From positions 1 through 61,307 of the forward strand of contig JACZJN010000036.1 in NCBI GenBank assembly GCA_014860565.1: a stretch of 61,307 bases of DNA, written 5' to 3'. The notes under the pieces were generated by a model. It ran no database searches, was not told the origin of the DNA, and worked only from the letters and a program-made list of their open reading frames with translations. The DNA is from Bacteroidota bacterium (GTDB lineage: Bacteria; Bacteroidota; Ignavibacteria; SZUA-365). Positions 53,367-61,307 of this stretch are shown in pieces. Position 1 is the stretch's first letter; each line of letters opens with the position of its first letter. The translations under genes and the position numbers were made by a program.

Positions 53367-55793
53367 ATGCAAAACAACCCGCTCCGTCCCGCCCGTCAGC
53401 ATCCGCAACTCTCACTCGAACAGCTTCGCTGGTTCTGTCCACAGGAAAGCATTCCTGCGGAAACCACTGAAGGTGTCGAGCCTATCGAAGGCATCATCGG
53501 CCAGGACAGGGCCCTCAAGGCACTGAAACTCGGTGTCGAACTCTATAGTCCCGGTTACAACGTTTTCGTTTGCGGTCTGTCAGGCACTGGCAAGGCGACA
53601 ACCATTAAGACCATTCTCGAAAAGATTCAGCCGCGGAAAGTGCTTACGCAGGATTATTGCTACGTACATAATTTCGAGGATCCCGACCGCCCAATGCTGC
53701 TTGTATTCGAACGGGGCCAGGGACGCCGCTTCCAGACGGATATGGCAGAAGCGATGCAGATGGTGCTCGAGCGCATACCCGGACAGTTCGAGGAAGAGGA
53801 AGTTCTGAAGAAAAAGCAATCTCTTATCGATGAATACAATCGGATGGAGGCCGAACTTTTTGCCGCCTTCGAAAAGGAGCTTGAGCCAGAGGGCTTTGTA
53901 CTCGGCAGGGTCCAGGACGGACAGACGCTGCATCCTGAAATACTGATCAAATTGGGCGAAAAGGCCGTTCTCGTCTCGGATCTGCCTGCGGCGGTCACGG
54001 AGAAACTCCTCGCCAGGGAAGAGGCCGAAAAGTATACCGAAAAGTATCGCGTCTACAAACGAAAGCTGCAGGACGTCTTCCGTCAGGGGATGAAACTTTC
54101 CCGTGAGTACCAGAAGAAAATCGCCGATCATGAGCGTCAGGTGGGAGAATTTTACGTCGGCGCCATTTTTACCGACTTGCTCAACGATTTCACCGATGAA
54201 AAAGCACAGACCTACCTGCGTTCGGTGATCGAAAGTCTGCTTGAGAATCTCGATCAGTTCAAGGTGCGCCAGGAAGAGGCCATCGATGTTCCGACCGAGT
54301 ACCAGGTGAATCTCCTGCTCGACAACAGCACGACGTCTTGCTGTCCGGTTGTCATCGAAACGGCACCGACATTCCGGAATATCTTCGGAACGCTCGAACG
54401 CAGTCAGGATGCCAACGGCTTCTATTTCACCGATTTCACGATGATCAAGGCCGGGTCGCTGCTGCAGGCGGATGGAGGCTTCCTTGTTCTCAACGCAGCG
54501 GATGCCCTGACCGAAGCGGGGGTATGGAAAAATCTGCAGCGTGTGCTGCTGTACCGCAAACTCGAAATTCAGAGCCTGGAAATGTTTTCGCAGCAGTCGG
54601 GCAGCGCCATGAAGCCGGAGGGCATTGAAGTCAACGTAAAAGTGATTCTCATCGGCAACAATGAGATCTATGGCGCGCTGAGCGCGTACGAAAGGGATTT
54701 TAAAAAAATCTTCAAAGTGAAGGCCGACTTCGATTATGAAATGCCCAACACCGAACTTGCGGTCAAGCAATACACTGCGCTGATTCGCAAGATGATTTCG
54801 GATGAAGGGATGAAGCATTTCGACAAGCGTGCCATCGCAGGCATCGTTGAGTACGGCGCGCGTCTCGTCAACAGCAAGAAAAAGCTGACTACGCAGTTCA
54901 GTGAAATTGCCGACATCGTGCGGGAAGCCAACTACTGGTGCGAGCAGAACAGCAACAAGTATGTCACGGCAGAACACGTCGACAAGGCGATCGATGAAAC
55001 ATACAGCCGTCATGCCCTTTACGAGGACAAACTGCAGGAGATGATCGACAACGAGGTCATCCTCATCGACGTGGTGGGCGAGCGGATCGGACAGATCAAC
55101 GGATTGGCCGTGTATGGCGGTGAGCGATTCTCTTTCGGAAAGCCGACGCGCATCACCGCCACGGCCGCCGCCGGAAAGGCAGGGATCATCAATATCGAGC
55201 GCGAAGCGAACATGAGCGGGAGCACGCACGACAAGGGCATGCTCATTCTCTCCGGCTTTATCCGTGAGCAGTTTGCACAGGAACGGCCGATGTCCCTGAC
55301 GGCGAGCATTTCTTTCGAACAGTCGTACTCCGGCATTGATGGAGACAGCGCCTCATCGACCGAAGTCTATGCATTGCTCTCCGCACTCTCCGACCTGCCG
55401 ATCAAACAAGCCATCGCCGTGACTGGATCCATCAACCAGAAGGGCGACATTCAGCCTATCGGCGGAGTGAACGAGAAGATCGAAGGGTTTTTCGATGTCT
55501 GCGAACGCCGCGGCCTTACGGGAAACCAGGGTGTGATCATTCCAAAGCAGAATGTTGAGGATCTCATGCTCCGGTCAAATATCGTTGAATCTGTCCGGAG
55601 TGGACGCTTCCACATCTGGGCGGTGGCAAATGTGCAGGAGGGCATTGAACTCCTCACAGGTGTGGCGGCCGGCGAAAGGGAGGAGAGCGGTCATTATCCT
55701 CCCGACACTGTTTTCGGATTGGTAGAACGGAGGCTGCAGCGACTGTATCAAAACGCGCAGGATGGCGGAGATGTGGAGCACGACCTTAAATAA
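53367..55793 (+). CDS. Lon-like ATP-dependent protease (AAA_32 plus S16 domain)
   Basis: An 808-residue protein. An atypical Walker A, CGLSGTGKATTIK, is at residues 69-81. A long helical insert (about 120-300) follows, then the second AAA part (FLVLNAADALTEAGVWKNL..., VILIGNNEIYGAL). The C-terminal S16 Lon protease domain has the nucleophile serine in DGDSASSTEVYALLSAL and the dyad lysine in GGVNEKIEGFF. Members are non-canonical Lon proteases of bacteria. No membrane segment. No clear ribosome site before ATG 53367. Terminator at 55813-55839. Confidence 0.9.
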   Translation: MQNNPLRPARQHPQLSLEQLRWFCPQESIPAETTEGVEPIEGIIGQDRALKALKLGVELYSPGYNVFVCGLSGTGKATTIKTILEKIQPRKVLTQDYCYVHNFEDPDRPMLLVFERGQGRRFQTDMAEAMQMVLERIPGQFEEEEVLKKKQSLIDEYNRMEAELFAAFEKELEPEGFVLGRVQDGQTLHPEILIKLGEKAVLVSDLPAAVTEKLLAREEAEKYTEKYRVYKRKLQDVFRQGMKLSREYQKKIADHERQVGEFYVGAIFTDLLNDFTDEKAQTYLRSVIESLLENLDQFKVRQEEAIDVPTEYQVNLLLDNSTTSCCPVVIETAPTFRNIFGTLERSQDANGFYFTDFTMIKAGSLLQADGGFLVLNAADALTEAGVWKNLQRVLLYRKLEIQSLEMFSQQSGSAMKPEGIEVNVKVILIGNNEIYGALSAYERDFKKIFKVKADFDYEMPNTELAVKQYTALIRKMISDEGMKHFDKRAIAGIVEYGARLVNSKKKLTTQFSEIADIVREANYWCEQNSNKYVTAEHVDKAIDETYSRHALYEDKLQEMIDNEVILIDVVGERIGQINGLAVYGGERFSFGKPTRITATAAAGKAGIINIEREANMSGSTHDKGMLILSGFIREQFAQERPMSLTASISFEQSYSGIDGDSASSTEVYALLSALSDLPIKQAIAVTGSINQKGDIQPIGGVNEKIEGFFDVCERRGLTGNQGVIIPKQNVEDLMLRSNIVESVRSGRFHIWAVANVQEGIELLTGVAAGEREESGHYPPDTVFGLVERRLQRLYQNAQDGGDVEHDLK

Positions 55794-55812: not shown

Positions 55813-55839
55813 ATCCCCGGCGCGTCCGGGGATTTTTTT
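55813..55839 (+). terminator. Terminator after the Lon-like gene, overlapping the GT9 stop codon
   Basis: ATCCCCGG (55813-55820) pairs perfectly with CCGGGGAT (55826-55833) around a 5-base loop, followed by T7 (55833-55839). The minus-strand stop codon of the convergent glycosyltransferase (55838-55840) lies in the T-run. Confidence 0.88.
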
Positions 55840-56911
55840 ACAGCCGAAGCATGTCGCGCACGGCCGCTATTACCTGCACGGGGGTAATACCGCCCTCGAA
55901 AGTACAGATGTGCGGATCGCCCGGACAGCGTGTCTGGCAGTAGTCATCAGGGGGAAGGATGGTATTCGAGCGGTTCCCCTGCGGTCCCCAGAGTATCGGG
56001 GAGCAGGCGGTGAGCGGACAGAACAGACTCACCGTCGGAGTGCCGAGCGCGGCCGCGAGATGCATGGGGCCGGTGCTCGCGGAAACGACGACGTCCGCTT
56101 CGGCGATCAGCCCCATCAGCAAGCGCAGATCGGTCGACCCATCGGGAAGCAGCATGCCGCGTGAGCGGAGAGGTTCGAAGGAGGCGCGGGCTGCGCTGTT
56201 GCCCGGGGTGACGTTAATCAGGACCTGTGCCTCCGGAATATGCGTGAGCAGGCCCTCGGCGAATTGGCGGTATACGTCCGTTGTCCAGTTCGGCGCCGAG
56301 CGGCCGCTTTCAGGATGGATGGATATCAGGGGGCGTCCGGGAACTTGACCGATCAACCGCAGACGTTCCTGCGCCGCGCTGCGTTCCACGTCGGTGAGAA
56401 ATGCCTCGGTGCGCAGATCGTCGGAACGCACACCGATTGCGCGCGCGAGGTCCAGGCAGTAATCGGCTTCATGGCGGAGGGGAATATATTTCTGCCGACT
56501 CACGCTGCGGGCACAGGTCAGAATCTGATAGAGTTTCGTTCCGACGCCGATGCGGGTACGGATGCCCGCGAGAAAGGTCATCCATGCATGGCGCTCAGTG
56601 GGAAGCAGCATCAACGCCGTGTCGAAGCGGTGGCGGCGGAGCATACGGAGCCGGTCCGCGAAGCCTGCGCGTCCGGCATGGCTCTGTTCCCAGTCATCCA
56701 CCAGGATGGCATCGATATGTGGATTGTGCCGGAGCACCGGTTCTGTCGCAGGACGTACCAGCGCGGCAAGGTTCGCGTCGGGGAATGTCTGCCGCAACGC
56801 ACGAAATACGGGCGTCGCGAGTGTGACGTCGCCGATGCGGTCGGGACGAATAACAAGGATACGGCGGTGTTTTCGGGCAAGTGCGGTCATTTGCTGCGAT
56901 GCCTGGCTCAT
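55838..56911 (-). CDS. Glycosyltransferase family 9 (heptosyltransferase-like)
   Basis: A 357-residue GT-B enzyme. The N-terminus RILVIRPDRIGDVTLATPVFRALRQTFP is the GT9 signature (R-x-D-x-x-G-D at its core). In the C-terminal half, ISIHPESGRSAPNW and VVSASTGPMHLAAALGTPTVSLFCP bind the nucleotide-sugar. It adds heptose or a similar sugar to an LPS core or surface glycan. Its ATG overlaps the stop of the upstream GT2 gene by four bases. Confidence 0.92.
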   Translation of the reverse strand: MSQASQQMTALARKHRRILVIRPDRIGDVTLATPVFRALRQTFPDANLAALVRPATEPVLRHNPHIDAILVDDWEQSHAGRAGFADRLRMLRRHRFDTALMLLPTERHAWMTFLAGIRTRIGVGTKLYQILTCARSVSRQKYIPLRHEADYCLDLARAIGVRSDDLRTEAFLTDVERSAAQERLRLIGQVPGRPLISIHPESGRSAPNWTTDVYRQFAEGLLTHIPEAQVLINVTPGNSAARASFEPLRSRGMLLPDGSTDLRLLMGLIAEADVVVSASTGPMHLAAALGTPTVSLFCPLTACSPILWGPQGNRSNTILPPDDYCQTRCPGDPHICTFEGGITPVQVIAAVRDMLRL

Positions 56912-57744
56912 GCGCCCGCTCCGCCGCTGCTCTCCTGACCTGGGGGGGGCGATTCTTTGGGGATTCCCTCGTCAACGCCGCGATACTGCATTTCCCATAA
57001 ATAAATCAGCATCTGCCGTTTATTCGCTGCATGGATCACGGAAATGATGAAGCCTTCCCAGCCATCAAGGAACGCTCGCTGGAACAGGTATTTCTTGAGA
57101 AATTCGAGTGGGGGACGCAGAAGGAAATCCAGAACCGTGATGCGTCGGCGGTTTCTTTTTTCACGTGCCTCGAAGAGCGCATAGTCGAGATTCTTCTTGA
57201 GCATGTGACGAACGCGGGGAAGTGTATAGTGAAGAAGGTGCCCGCGCAGCTCGCCGCGGCTGCCGTTGACTTCGAACCCCTCGTGCACGAGTCGGGTGGT
57301 CACACGCGCACGTTCGCGCCGGAGGAGGCGGAGCTGAAGATCGGGGTACCAGCCCCCGTAGCGAATCCAGCGTCCATGAAAATGGTTGCGTCTCGGGATG
57401 TAGTAACCGTCCTGCGCTGCACTCGTGAGTAGTACGGTGCGAATGTCCTCGCGCAATTCATCCGATACACGTTCGTCCGCGTCGATGCTGAGGACCCAGT
57501 CTCGGGTGCATTGTGCCAGTGCGAATGCTTTTTGCGATGCGAAGCCGTCGAATGGGCGGAACAGAACCTTGTCGGTGAATTCGCGGGCTATCACCATGGT
57601 GGCGTCATCCCGCTGCGAGCAGACGACGATGATTTCGCCCGCGAAGGCGGCCGATGCGAGGCAATCCCGGATGTTGTGTTCTTCGCTCCCTGCGATGACG
57701 GAAACGGAAAGTTGTGCAAAGACGCTGTCGGCGGCTGGATTCAT
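56908..57744 (-). CDS. Glycosyltransferase family 2 (LPS-core type)
   Basis: A 278-residue GT-A enzyme. LSVSVIAGSEEHNIRDCLASA opens the family-2 fold, VLSIDADERVSDEL contains the metal-binding D-x-D, and the WYPDLQLRLLRRERARV segment is typical of WaaE/KdtX-like core glycosyltransferases. The C-terminus is helical and ends in a low-complexity tail PPPGQESSGGAGA encoded over a run of eight G/C (56942-56949). Coupled to the GT9 gene by a 4-bp overlap. Confidence 0.9.
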   Translation of the reverse strand: MNPAADSVFAQLSVSVIAGSEEHNIRDCLASAAFAGEIIVVCSQRDDATMVIAREFTDKVLFRPFDGFASQKAFALAQCTRDWVLSIDADERVSDELREDIRTVLLTSAAQDGYYIPRRNHFHGRWIRYGGWYPDLQLRLLRRERARVTTRLVHEGFEVNGSRGELRGHLLHYTLPRVRHMLKKNLDYALFEAREKRNRRRITVLDFLLRPPLEFLKKYLFQRAFLDGWEGFIISVIHAANKRQMLIYLWEMQYRGVDEGIPKESPPPGQESSGGAGA

Positions 57745-57818: not shown

Positions 57819-59030
57819 TTATTCCTCGAACACCCCGTTGAGATCGGTTTTGATGATCAGGAGATCCTGGTTGCCGCTGCCGTAGGAACGTGTTGTTCCC
57901 GTAAGGATGTAGCCGCCCTCGCGCACAGTGGCCACCGAGAGCGCGCGGTCCATGCGCGTGCCGCCGATGACGCGCTTCCATTCTTCATTGCCGTCCATGT
58001 CGACCTTGGCGAGAATGATGTCGCATCCTTCGCTGCCGTAGGGATCGGTGTAGCCGGTGAGAATGAAACCACCATCCGGAGTGTTGGCGATACCGGTTCC
58101 GATGGCGTTGTTATGGACGATGACTTCGCGCAGCATATCGCCCGAGGCGTCGGTCTTGACAAACAGCAGGTTGGAGGTCTGCAACTGCTGGGGATTGGCA
58201 TAGCCGACGATTCCGTATGCGCCGTTGCCGGCACGGACGAGCTGAAAACCGCTCTTGCTCATATCACCGTCGATGCGCCGATCCCACTCGAAGTCCCCGT
58301 TCGCCGCGACCTTGAACAGCCACAGCTCGCTGTTGCCGTTGCCGCCTGTTTCGGTAGAACCGGTGACGACGAAGCCCCCGTCCTCGGTTTCCTGCACCGA
58401 CGTGCCGAGGTCGCGTTCGCTGCCGCCGTAGCGTTTGCTCCAAATTTCGTTGCCGAGTCCATCAGTGCGCACAAGCCATGCGAACCAGTTGCCGGTGGCG
58501 GCGAACTGCGTGTATCCCGCGACGAGGAAGTCGCCGTTGCTGCATTCGATCACGTCCTGTCCGCTGTCGTAGCTGTTGCCGCCGAAAGAACGGCTCCAGA
58601 TCATGGAGCCGTTGGCGTCGGTTTTGATCAGCCACACGTCGTTGAAACCGTTGGTGTACGATTCGGTGCTGCCGGTAAGAATGAAGCCGCCATCCGAAGT
58701 CTGGGTGACGGAGTAGCCTTCGTCCTCGTACACGCCGCCGAAGGTTTTCACCCAGAGGGTTTGTCCTTCCGCGTCCGTGCGGAGCAGGAGAACGTCGATG
58801 GAGCCGGTGTGCTGCATCCATGTGCGTCCGACGACGATATACCCGCCGTCTTCGACCTGCTGGATATCGAATCCTTCGTCGTACTCGCTCATGTCCAGCG
58901 TGCGGAGGAAGTAGAGCGAGGGTTCCGTGATCCGTCGCCGGGGGGTATCAGGATCGGTCGGCGAAACGCACGCCGTGAGCAGGATAGTTGCGGCGAGCGA
59001 AAGGAGGACGGTGCGAGTGCGATGCGCCAT
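57819..59030 (-). CDS. Beta-propeller lipoprotein of the sigma-factor operon
   Basis: A 403-residue lipoprotein starting at ATG 59030 (GGAGC just upstream). The lipobox LTAC is at about residues 16-19. The mature part repeats a ~50-residue unit with G-G-Y/F-I-x-x-G-x-T (GGYIVVGRT, GGFILTGST, GGFVVTGST, GGFILTGYT, GGYILTGTT) followed by D-x-x-L-x-K-x-D-x-x-G-x-x-x-W, the pattern of PQQ-like/delta-60 beta-propellers. It starts 16 bases after the stop of the anti-sigma/barrel gene and should be co-expressed; a role as a sensor or partner for the barrel is inferred. Confidence 0.82.
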   Translation of the reverse strand: MAHRTRTVLLSLAATILLTACVSPTDPDTPRRRITEPSLYFLRTLDMSEYDEGFDIQQVEDGGYIVVGRTWMQHTGSIDVLLLRTDAEGQTLWVKTFGGVYEDEGYSVTQTSDGGFILTGSTESYTNGFNDVWLIKTDANGSMIWSRSFGGNSYDSGQDVIECSNGDFLVAGYTQFAATGNWFAWLVRTDGLGNEIWSKRYGGSERDLGTSVQETEDGGFVVTGSTETGGNGNSELWLFKVAANGDFEWDRRIDGDMSKSGFQLVRAGNGAYGIVGYANPQQLQTSNLLFVKTDASGDMLREVIVHNNAIGTGIANTPDGGFILTGYTDPYGSEGCDIILAKVDMDGNEEWKRVIGGTRMDRALSVATVREGGYILTGTTRSYGSGNQDLLIIKTDLNGVFEE

Positions 59031-59046: not shown

Positions 59047-60561
59047 TCAGAGGAGAATGGAAATGCCGTAGGTGAAACCGGCGCGTTTCGAGGTGAACCA
59101 GGTATTCTGATACGGATAGGCCAGAAGCGAGCCTTCGAGTCCGAGATGGAAGCGTACGCGGCGATCGGGCATATACATGAGGCCGACGCCGGCGCGTGCC
59201 AGCGGCCAGGCCTGGAGCGTAGTGCCGAGGCTTGTGGTGACATAGGGTTCGATCGAGCCGAGGGCTTGCACGGGCAGGAAGCGATGGCGGTAGCCGAGGA
59301 GGATCCACGACGTCAGCAGATTCTGCTCATAGTAGACGTCCTTCCCGTGTTCGACACCGTGATAGTGCTGGGAGAAGGGTTCCTGACCGTATTCCAGTCC
59401 GTAATCCTCCTGTTCGTCGCTGTAATAGACCGCGGCGGCCATGTTTGCCATCCACGGATTCGAACGCGTCCCGATGGTCACATCGGGGAAGGAGGCGGCT
59501 GAGACGCCGCGGAGTTCCACCGACAGGTAATGCAGTACGGGTTCCTGGTTCAGCATCGGGAAATAGCGGCGCGTGTCGACAACGTCCTGTCCCGCCATGC
59601 CCTGTTGCGCGAGGATGCTTGCATCCTCCGTCGGCATCGGGGAGGCCGGTGTGGGAATCCATCCTCCGTTCCTTTCCGTGGCCGGAGACGCGTCATCAAA
59701 CGGAGCGGTGTCCGGGCGCGGAACTGACGTCTGCGGAGCAGCCGTCTGTGGTGAAACAGCGCGATCCGTTGCGTCGGCGAATGAGCGGTCGGTCTGCGTC
59801 GTCACCCCGGCAGGAGCGGGGGTCGTGGGAGCCGGGCTCGCGGTGGAGGCGGCGAAGGTTGGAGCAACGGATCGGTCGGGAGATGGCTGCACCGGGTCCG
59901 CGGCGGGAACCGGGGACGCAGGTGCCGGGGACGCAGGTGCCGGGGACGCGGAGGTGCGGGAGGCGTTGGCATTCTGCGCTGGATGGTCGGATTGTGACGG
60001 ATTCGCGGCGCGTTCGTTTGACGGCGCGGCGCTGGGCTGCGCGGCGTTGGGCTGCGCGGCGCTGGGAACGGCGGTTGATTGCGTGCCGTCAGCGTTGGAG
60101 GTTGCGGAGGCGTCGCGGGATTCCGGGCGCGGAGTGGTTGCGGTATTCGTCTGCCGGTCGGCGAGCGCGGGGGTGGAGTCGCGAGAGAGATTCCCCTGCA
60201 AACCGAATATCACTGTCGCGGTCAGGATGGCAGCGGCCGCTGCGGAGGCGACGGGAGCCCAAGCCTGTCGGAACAGAAGGGCGGCGCCGAGGAGATGCTT
60301 CGGACGAACGGATGACGAATGGGCGAATCCGAGTCGGCCGAATACTGCGCTTGTCAGTTCCGGAGGAGGTGCTGCAACTGTGCCGAAGCGCCGTGCCTCT
60401 GTGCGAATTCCACGCAGCTGACGCAGGCGCGCCCGCAGATCTCCATCGGTGGCAAGTATGGCATAGAACTGCTGTTCGATCTCCGCGGGGAGTTCCTCAT
60501 CGATATAGGCATGCAGCAGTTCATCGGGGGTGCTGTGTGCGGTGTACATGACAGTGCTCAC
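59047..60561 (-). CDS. Anti-sigma factor fused to an outer-membrane beta-barrel
   Basis: A 504-residue protein. Residues 1-80 look like an anti-sigma domain (STPDELLHAYIDEELPAEIE, then ATDGDLRARLRQLRGIR). One membrane helix lies at about 98-121. Residues ~125-330 are a low-complexity linker rich in A, P, S, T with repeats such as SPAPASPAPAS. Residues ~335-504 read as an eight-strand-like barrel (PVLHYLSVELRGVSAAS, MANMAAAVYYSDEQEDYG, LTSWILLGYRHRFLP, VRFHLGLEGSLLAYPY) ending FTYGISILL. One chain would thus cross the inner membrane, the periplasm and the outer membrane, like the dual membrane-spanning anti-sigma factors described in Bacteroides. GTG 60561 overlaps the sigma stop by four bases; ATG 60549 is the alternative. 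Confidence 0.82.
   Translation of the reverse strand: MSTVMYTAHSTPDELLHAYIDEELPAEIEQQFYAILATDGDLRARLRQLRGIRTEARRFGTVAAPPPELTSAVFGRLGFAHSSSVRPKHLLGAALLFRQAWAPVASAAAAAILTATVIFGLQGNLSRDSTPALADRQTNTATTPRPESRDASATSNADGTQSTAVPSAAQPNAAQPSAAPSNERAANPSQSDHPAQNANASRTSASPAPASPAPASPVPAADPVQPSPDRSVAPTFAASTASPAPTTPAPAGVTTQTDRSFADATDRAVSPQTAAPQTSVPRPDTAPFDDASPATERNGGWIPTPASPMPTEDASILAQQGMAGQDVVDTRRYFPMLNQEPVLHYLSVELRGVSAASFPDVTIGTRSNPWMANMAAAVYYSDEQEDYGLEYGQEPFSQHYHGVEHGKDVYYEQNLLTSWILLGYRHRFLPVQALGSIEPYVTTSLGTTLQAWPLARAGVGLMYMPDRRVRFHLGLEGSLLAYPYQNTWFTSKRAGFTYGISILL
59911..59955. repeat. 15-bp tandem repeat in the anti-sigma linker
   Basis: CGGGGACGCAGGTGC occurs twice exactly (59911-59925, 59926-59940), followed by a partial third copy. 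It encodes the A-S-P-A-P repeats of the linker on the minus strand. Confidence 0.75.
60024..60068. repeat. Second 15-bp tandem repeat in the anti-sigma linker
   Basis: Three near-identical 15-bp units (GCGCGGCGCTGGGCT type, with one C/T change in the second copy) encode S-A-A-Q-P / N-A-A-Q-P on the minus strand. Confidence 0.7.
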
Positions 60562-61157
60562 TGTTTCTTCTGTTCCTGTTCGTATTCGGCGATATACGGC
60601 TCGAGTATTTTTCTGATTTTCTCACGGGCGCGGGTGACGCGGATGCGCACGTTGACATTGGTCAGGTTCATCACCTGCGCGATTTCTTCATAAGGCATGT
60701 CCGCAAATTCGCGGAGAAAAAATGCTTCTCGGTAATCTTCGGAAAGCAGTTCCATCGCCATGTGGATGAGCTCGAGCATCTCCGTTTTCTCATGCGGCAC
60801 CGCGGCCATCGCGAGCGTGTCGTGCTCGATGCTGATGACCGGCTTGCGGTCGCGCTGCATGTTGAGATAGAGATTTCGTGCAATCTTGATCACATAGCCG
60901 GAAATATTGCTGATATCACGGCCTTGCAGGGCACTTTCGTACAGGCGAGTGATCGCTTCCTGGAAGAGGTCGTCGCTCTCTTCGCGTCTCCAGGCGAGGC
61001 ATCGACAATAGGCATAGAGACTGCCCGAGAGTCGACCATACAACTCCCGGAAAGCGGACTCGGCTACGGTGCCGCCCTCTCGCACCTTGCAAAACAGCTC
61101 GAGGTCGGTGCATTCCGTCAGTCGCGCCTGTGTGTTATGGCTGCCGCGCAATCGCAA
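60558..61157 (-). CDS. ECF-type RNA polymerase sigma factor
   Basis: A 199-residue sigma factor with region 2 (FRELYGRLSGSLYAYCRCLA...SDDLFQEAITRLYES) and region 4 (LSEDYREAFFLREFADMPYEEIAQVMNL, then VRIRVTRAREKIRKIL). No region 1 or 3, so group 4 (ECF). The start is TTG 61157 with AAGGA about ten bases upstream; no ATG is available in a suitable place. Its stop overlaps the GTG of the anti-sigma/barrel gene, so the pair is translationally coupled, the usual arrangement for a sigma factor and its own inhibitor. Confidence 0.93.
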   Translation of the reverse strand: MRLRGSHNTQARLTECTDLELFCKVREGGTVAESAFRELYGRLSGSLYAYCRCLAWRREESDDLFQEAITRLYESALQGRDISNISGYVIKIARNLYLNMQRDRKPVISIEHDTLAMAAVPHEKTEMLELIHMAMELLSEDYREAFFLREFADMPYEEIAQVMNLTNVNVRIRVTRAREKIRKILEPYIAEYEQEQKKQ

Positions 61158-61202: not shown

Positions 61203-61227
61203 GACACGTGAATGTGTGCTTTGTTTC
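61203..61227 (-). promoter_or_regulatory. Candidate ECF-type autoregulated promoter
   Basis: On the minus strand GAAAC (61227-61223) is followed after 17 bases by GTC (61205-61203), resembling the GAAC...GTC layout of ECF promoters. It lies 46 bases before the sigma start codon. Confidence 0.35.
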
Positions 61228-61233
61228 AAGATA

Positions 61234-61307
61234 CGGAAGGAGTGGGAAGAACGGAAGGAGTGGAAGGAGCGGAAGGGGCGGAAGGAGCGGAAGGGGCGGA
61301 AGGAGCG
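61234..61307. repeat. 9-bp minisatellite at the right edge
   Basis: Eight consecutive 9-bp units of the form CGGAAGGAG (variants TGGAAGGAG, CGGAAGGGG, TGGGAAGAA) fill 61234-61305 and continue past the window. The last four units alternate CGGAAGGGG and CGGAAGGAG, giving an 18-bp higher-order period. One strand is purely G/A-rich. It lies upstream of the sigma-factor gene. Confidence 0.9.

Follow-up and report, generated by a model that had tools for sequence, protein, structure and literature searches.

The window analysed here, a stretch of 61,307 nucleotides that makes up a complete contig from a 4.75 Mb genome, carries near its end a run of reverse-strand genes that begins with an ECF sigma factor gene and continues with a predicted membrane-spanning anti-sigma factor, a lipoprotein and two glycosyltransferases. 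In the direction of reading, the features are as follows:

61203..61228, minus strand: putative ECF-type operon promoter, TGAAACAA-N13-GTGTC, ~45 bp ahead of the sigma start codon
60558..61157, minus strand: ECF sigma factor gene with regions 2 and 4, TTG start (Pfam Sigma70_r2, 5.5e-07; Sigma70_r4_2, 6.5e-16)
59047..60549, minus strand: anti-sigma/barrel ORF of 500 aa, ATG at 60549 (ORF and AlphaFold2 model)
60334..60528, minus strand: RseA-type anti-sigma domain, residues 8-72, four helices (pLDDT ~95 for helices 1-3)
60193..60285, minus strand: single predicted inner-membrane helix, residues 89-119 (AlphaFold2; best 19-residue hydropathy, 1.91, inside the helix)
59527..60192, minus strand: predicted disordered A/P/S/T-rich periplasmic tether, residues 120-341 (pLDDT mostly 41-56 up to residue 320)
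59050..59526, minus strand: predicted closed 8-stranded outer-membrane barrel, residues 342-500 (eight strands, 342-499)
57819..59030, minus strand: third gene, lipoprotein of 403 aa (a signal peptide leads into C-V-S-P-T-D-P-D-T-P-R; the body consists of delta-60-like repeats)
58939..58970, minus strand: conserved lipoprotein N-terminal motif CxSPxDxxxPR (matches with a signal peptide adjoin barrel anti-sigma genes)
56908..57744, minus strand: glycosyltransferase family 2 (PF00535, 8e-07; conserved in 5/5 family loci examined)
55838..56911, minus strand: glycosyltransferase family 9, heptosyltransferase (PF01075, 6.2e-19; overlaps the family 2 gene; same place in 5/5 loci examined)

Both sigma-factor Pfam domains exceeded their cut-offs, and the window anti-sigma protein alone gave no Pfam match above cut-off. 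The two ORFs lie where the original prediction, made from the sequence, had placed them; the 504-residue product that it named results from an alternative GTG start at 60561, in frame with the ATG at 60549, and the longer ORF (59047-60561) shares 4 bases with the sigma gene. That prediction had the sigma/anti-sigma pair right but overlooked the third gene, the operon promoter and the downstream glycosyltransferases. It had also supposed that no TonB receptor/FecR pair is involved, and indeed none adjoins the two genes, the next genes being the lipoprotein and the two glycosyltransferases; Pfam found no FecR match in the anti-sigma protein, and the barrel is the protein's own. On the other side, the contig ends 150 bp upstream of the sigma gene. 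At a related locus (L051), a peptidase-like gene was noticed by eye among the ORFs directly upstream.

An AlphaFold2 model, run on an alignment of 43 full-length relatives, agreed with the proposed single-chain anti-sigma factor with an inner-membrane helix, a linker and a barrel, and the 43 relatives have the same layout as the window protein. Cytoplasmic helices were placed at residues 8-16, 22-34, 36-58 and 63-72. As anticipated, this N-terminal part fits an anti-sigma fold: the family profile, searched against the PDB, found RseA as its best match (1or7_C, E 3.4e-4), with further matches to DdvA (0.0097), RsiW (0.18) and MucA (0.38), and many family members were matched by NCBIfam anti-sigma models; the domain searched as a single sequence against solved structures found nothing. 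Binding of the sigma factor by this domain, expected between sigma regions 2 and 4, is predicted, and a model of the sigma and anti-sigma proteins as one read-through chain (13 natural pairs) reached a pTM of 0.55, with an arrangement unlike any known complex. Beyond the membrane helix, the model shows a low-confidence disordered stretch at about residues 120-330 (about 220 residues). Tethers in the 43 relatives span 99-224 residues (median 143), with no short forms, and the shortest, at 99 residues, would measure ~34 nm when extended, so that the tether was always long enough for crossing a periplasm in every relative measured.

The C-terminal part was predicted to be a closed small barrel, as the original prediction had expected, with eight strands in the fold of NspA, PagL and OmpA and a pLDDT mostly above 90 over residues 342-499. 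Foldseek and VIA matched it to outer-membrane barrels over 119-148 residues at 2.5-4.3 Å, with VIA Z scores of 14.9 for NspA, 14.2 for PagL, 14.0 for OprF and 13.8 for OmpA; soluble barrels such as avidin also match, at Z 9-10. The in/out alternation of hydrophobic residues along the strands beats that of 1988 of 2000 shuffles and was reached in 12, and the C-terminal residue is F in 26 and L in 9 of the 43 relatives. From the model, insertion of the barrel into the outer membrane is predicted. Since the layout is common to the 43 full-length relatives and a sigma gene lies directly upstream of nearly every barrel gene, it is far beyond chance.

The pair is nearly always followed by a third gene. 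A lipoprotein gene lies downstream at 46 of 59 distinct barrel loci by a strict lipobox test (~54 of 59 by eye), compared with 8 of 340 control ORFs, a rough baseline given that the control ORFs were taken mechanically; some of the barrel loci are also non-independent. At its mature end the lipoprotein usually begins with C-x-S-P-L/T-D-x-D/E-T/A-P-R, and among the retrieved loci of 11 genomes CxSPxDxxxPR with a signal peptide occurred at barrel loci only (30 of the 38 matches were retrieved and checked). A general lipoprotein sorting signal was considered as the cause of the motif and found no support, the matches with signal peptides lying solely at barrel loci in these 30 of 38. Behind the motif, each paralogue has its own kind of body, which is kept across genera. 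Delta-60-like repeats are found in the window, where TIGR02608 matches below its cut-off (1.5e-08), and at L051, L055, L068 and L069; VWA lipoproteins are found at L052, L067 and L056, and serpin lipoproteins at L054 (PF00079, E 4.7e-112) and its counterpart L057. The VWA-domain third gene was seen across genera in one paralogue group (L052, 1956-2696; L067, 3246-3986; L071, 3429-4082). The serpin gene takes third place in a paralogous sigma/barrel operon of the window's own genome (contig C210; L054, 2287-3537, minus strand) and at L057 (2124-3347); it is unusual for an envelope sigma system to have a protease inhibitor as its dedicated product or partner. Near the serpin operon, at 10581-11372 of L054, we also noted an extra sigma gene followed by a 264-aa anti-sigma factor with a membrane helix and without a barrel.

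Upstream of the operon, the pattern TG(A/C)AACAA-N13-GTGTC is conserved in six orthologous upstream regions. In eight related genomes it gave nine exact matches, eight of them just before a window-type sigma gene, and it occurred as a single copy, ahead of the operon, in 7/8 relatives; a reversed control pattern matched once in the eight genomes. The ninth match (L228; G204:C1:684304-684329) precedes a long ORF resembling an outer-membrane protein, which is a possible extra sigma target. Other paralogues are preceded by related boxes, TGTAAC with GTGTTA or GTGTCT. Between the promoter and the contig end, at 61230-61307, the window consists of low-complexity GGAAGGAGCGG-type repeats. These may be the reason why the assembly breaks off here, and at L026, in another genus, a CT-rich repeat occupies a similar position. 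At the other end of the operon, the gene run after the lipoprotein leads to two lipopolysaccharide-type glycosyltransferases in 5/5 loci checked. In the window, a LonB-like AAA+ protease gene (53367-55793, plus strand) is convergent with the glycosyltransferase genes.

We determined the distribution of the family by searches that covered the phylum Bacteroidota. A barrel-only search recovered additional copies from the same genome and hit 16 of 198 genomes, and a barrel profile matched 39 of 395 genomes of the phylum, of which 37 belong to the window's own class and two gave marginal matches. Within that class, the barrel family is present in 93 of 294 genomes and 46 of 152 genera; the number of copies in a genome rises to about ten and is four in the window's genome. 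The same sigma/anti-sigma/barrel order, for which the original prediction had suggested a search, was found in many genomes of the class: in sigma-factor searches and on gene-by-gene reading, the order of a sigma gene followed by anti-sigma domain, helix, linker and barrel is kept nearly everywhere, and the sigma gene lies directly upstream of every distinct barrel gene read except one fragment. This fragment (G023:C23:25749-25946; 64 aa, with a stop and without its own sigma gene) adjoins an intact pair and is a decayed duplicate; its genome gave about ten barrel matches. A seeming sigma-barrel fusion at L030 was rejected, as an in-frame stop merely separates two genes. The nearest named relative, QKAF01000141 from "Bacteroidetes bacterium SZUA-365," was matched over residues 1-500, with 58% in the best segment. 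SZUA-365 has been listed as a separate class within Bacteroidota (PMC8655204). The "distant branch" of which the original prediction spoke thus holds for another class but not for another phylum, since this nearest named relative is still placed in Bacteroidota at NCBI.

The layout recalls the Dma proteins of Bacteroides, which control vesiculation. In Bacteroides thetaiotaomicron, Dma1 and Dma2, paired with the ECF21 sigma factors Das1 and Das2, likewise hold four parts in one chain with the sigma gene directly upstream. Dma2, described from Bacteroidota alone, consists of an anti-sigma domain, a membrane helix, a disordered tether and a barrel, and its gene stands together with a DUF4943 gene and that of an ECF21 sigma factor (PMC13088901). 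Its downstream DUF4943 gene resembles the window's third gene in position, and a match to the Dma2 operon in another class (G278, L201) comprises a sigma factor, a barrel anti-sigma factor and a DUF4943 lipoprotein (E 1.6e-69). Across the Dma-type loci, however, having a lipoprotein as the third gene is not the rule, whereas a dedicated CxSPxDxxxPR-type lipoprotein stands at nearly all loci of the window family. The families also differ in the class of Bacteroidota that carries them, in the clade of their sigma factors and in the size of the anti-sigma domain, ~75 residues for the RseA-type domain of the window versus 40-50 in Dma. Two of the Dma-type loci, L193 and L215, adjoin NigD genes. 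L217 (122-1611), from a genome that has NigD, holds an ECF sigma ORF that ends in a membrane helix and is overlapped, in a different frame, by a barrel-like ORF. The arrangement resembles either Dma3, in which a sigma factor and a barrel protein are fused, or a frameshifted Dma3.

Direct comparison of the two families pointed to separate origins. Against the first three Dma-type proteins, hhalign gave both domains probabilities of 1% and below, and against a set enlarged by profile search to 21 Dma-type proteins the barrel reached 3.6%, out of register, and the anti-sigma domain 1.2%. The Dma profile matched 57 genomes, none of them from the window's class, and in the phylum search the window's profile gave no confident match beyond its own class. 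Among 117 sigma factors placed in a tree, the 42 that are partners of the window family formed one clade (100/99), and the four Das sequences, assigned by gene neighborhood rather than by a curated ECF21 model, formed another (100/98) that was placed among other ECF factors (grouping 95/91). The expectation of finding the Dma layout in this organism is thus sustained for the four-part arrangement but not for homology, which was undetectable in either domain between families that occupy disjoint classes and whose sigma factors group apart. Given the lack of domain homology, the disjoint distribution and the separate sigma clades, the likeness to Dma is, on these sequence comparisons, probably convergence. 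Because an AU test did not reject joining the window-family sigma factors with Das (p 0.218), some room is left for common ancestry, that is, for a true but strongly diverged Dma, in which an ancestral dual-membrane anti-sigma factor would predate the split of the classes and sigma factor, anti-sigma domain and barrel would all have drifted. The identical four-part order and sigma-first gene order, and at least one Dma2-type operon with a DUF4943 lipoprotein as its third gene, are consistent with such a history, but with neither domain showing profile similarity, with anti-sigma domains of different size, with genome searches matching disjoint classes in both directions and with Das joining other ECF factors in the tree, we consider it unlikely.

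The layout, fold, gene pairing, lipoprotein linkage and promoter found by computation suggest how the system may work. The N-terminal RseA-type domain would keep the ECF sigma factor inactive at the inner membrane, while the far end of the protein would be anchored as a folded barrel in the outer membrane. As the long disordered tether would allow the periplasm to be crossed by a single chain, an outer-membrane change could be passed to the cytoplasm without a separate receptor. Candidate signals are a ligand or the state of the lipoprotein, the state of the lipopolysaccharide, and failed barrel folding, and release would most likely proceed via periplasmic cleavage followed by intramembrane proteolysis. 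The freed sigma factor would then transcribe its own operon from the TG(A/C)AACAA-N13-GTGTC promoter, yielding sigma factor, anti-sigma factor, the dedicated lipoprotein and probably the two lipopolysaccharide-type glycosyltransferases, with a remodelled cell surface as the result and fresh anti-sigma factor as feedback. We infer sigma binding, signal, proteolysis, target genes and control of the glycosyltransferases in this scheme. By analogy, self-control of the operon as the main output would fit the deletion of dma2, upon which genes in or adjoining the dma2 operon were among the most raised, the downstream bt_1557 by log2 6.0 (PMC13088901). Taken as a whole, we think it probable that the locus encodes a barrel-tethered anti-sigma factor that signals to its own operon, Dma-like in function and most likely belonging to an independently evolved family.

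Known systems share parts of this arrangement. SigmaE-RseA of Escherichia coli (1or7), the best solved-structure match of the window anti-sigma profile, has a single membrane helix as well; RseA, however, has a short periplasmic domain without a barrel, and unfolded outer-membrane proteins are sensed in trans through DegS. FecI-FecR-FecA also connects an outer-membrane barrel to a cytoplasmic ECF sigma factor, but with three proteins, among them a TonB-dependent 22-strand receptor with a signalling domain, whereas the window has one protein with an 8-strand barrel. NspA, OmpA, OprF and PagL have the fold of the window barrel (Z 14-15), and we know of none that continues into a cytoplasmic domain by way of an inner-membrane helix.

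Two further readings retain the layout and specify the signal. If the protein were a sensor of barrel folding, failure of BAM would leave its own C terminus unfolded, and this would trigger periplasmic proteolysis in cis and free the sigma factor, in the way that C termini of outer-membrane proteins act through DegS in E. coli. The terminal F or L, like the C termini of outer-membrane proteins, and the RseA-type anti-sigma domain would suit such a sensor; several paralogues per genome with different lipoproteins nonetheless suggest specific rather than general signals, and the regulon seems to be one operon, unlike a general outer-membrane stress response, which makes this reading quite unlikely. 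Alternatively, the N-terminal tail of the lipoprotein might bind or thread its cognate barrel, its displacement being the signal, with RcsF and OmpA as a comparable case. The motif after the lipid cysteine is conserved on wholly different bodies (delta-60-like repeat, VWA, serpin) and absent from other lipoproteins at the retrieved loci of 11 genomes, as this would require, but the lipoprotein could equally be output alone, as bt_1557 appears to be, and the motif could be a sorting signal; we hold such gating to be rather improbable. Least credible, and in our judgment very improbable, is a soluble periplasmic barrel on an ordinary inner-membrane anti-sigma factor with a sensor domain, for which the avidin-like matches speak but against which stand the higher scores and extent of the outer-membrane barrel matches, the alternation of outward hydrophobic residues along the strands, the terminal F or L and a tether length that suits the periplasm.

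The favored reading, a Dma-like factor signalling to its own operon, may be carried one step further. On this more tentative proposal, which we regard as conceivable but somewhat doubtful, dual-membrane anti-sigma factors would have arisen a second time, independently, and multiplied to up to about ten paralogues in a genome; every barrel would make a two-part outer-membrane sensor with its own lipoprotein, via the CxSPxDxxxPR tail, and every operon would control itself from its own promoter.

The architecture itself has been known since Dma; what is new is a lipoprotein third gene with a locus-specific motif, together with a near-unique ECF promoter. The route from an outer-membrane event to transcription is an open problem, for which Dma has so far provided the only known single-chain solutions; it is described as confined to Bacteroidota and as working with ECF21 (PMC13088901). 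If true, a second large family whose parts appear unrelated would mean that this solution can be reached more than once. Such a family would offer natural controls for what is required of the tether, the barrel and the anti-sigma domain, and its partner lipoprotein and defined promoter make the signal testable.
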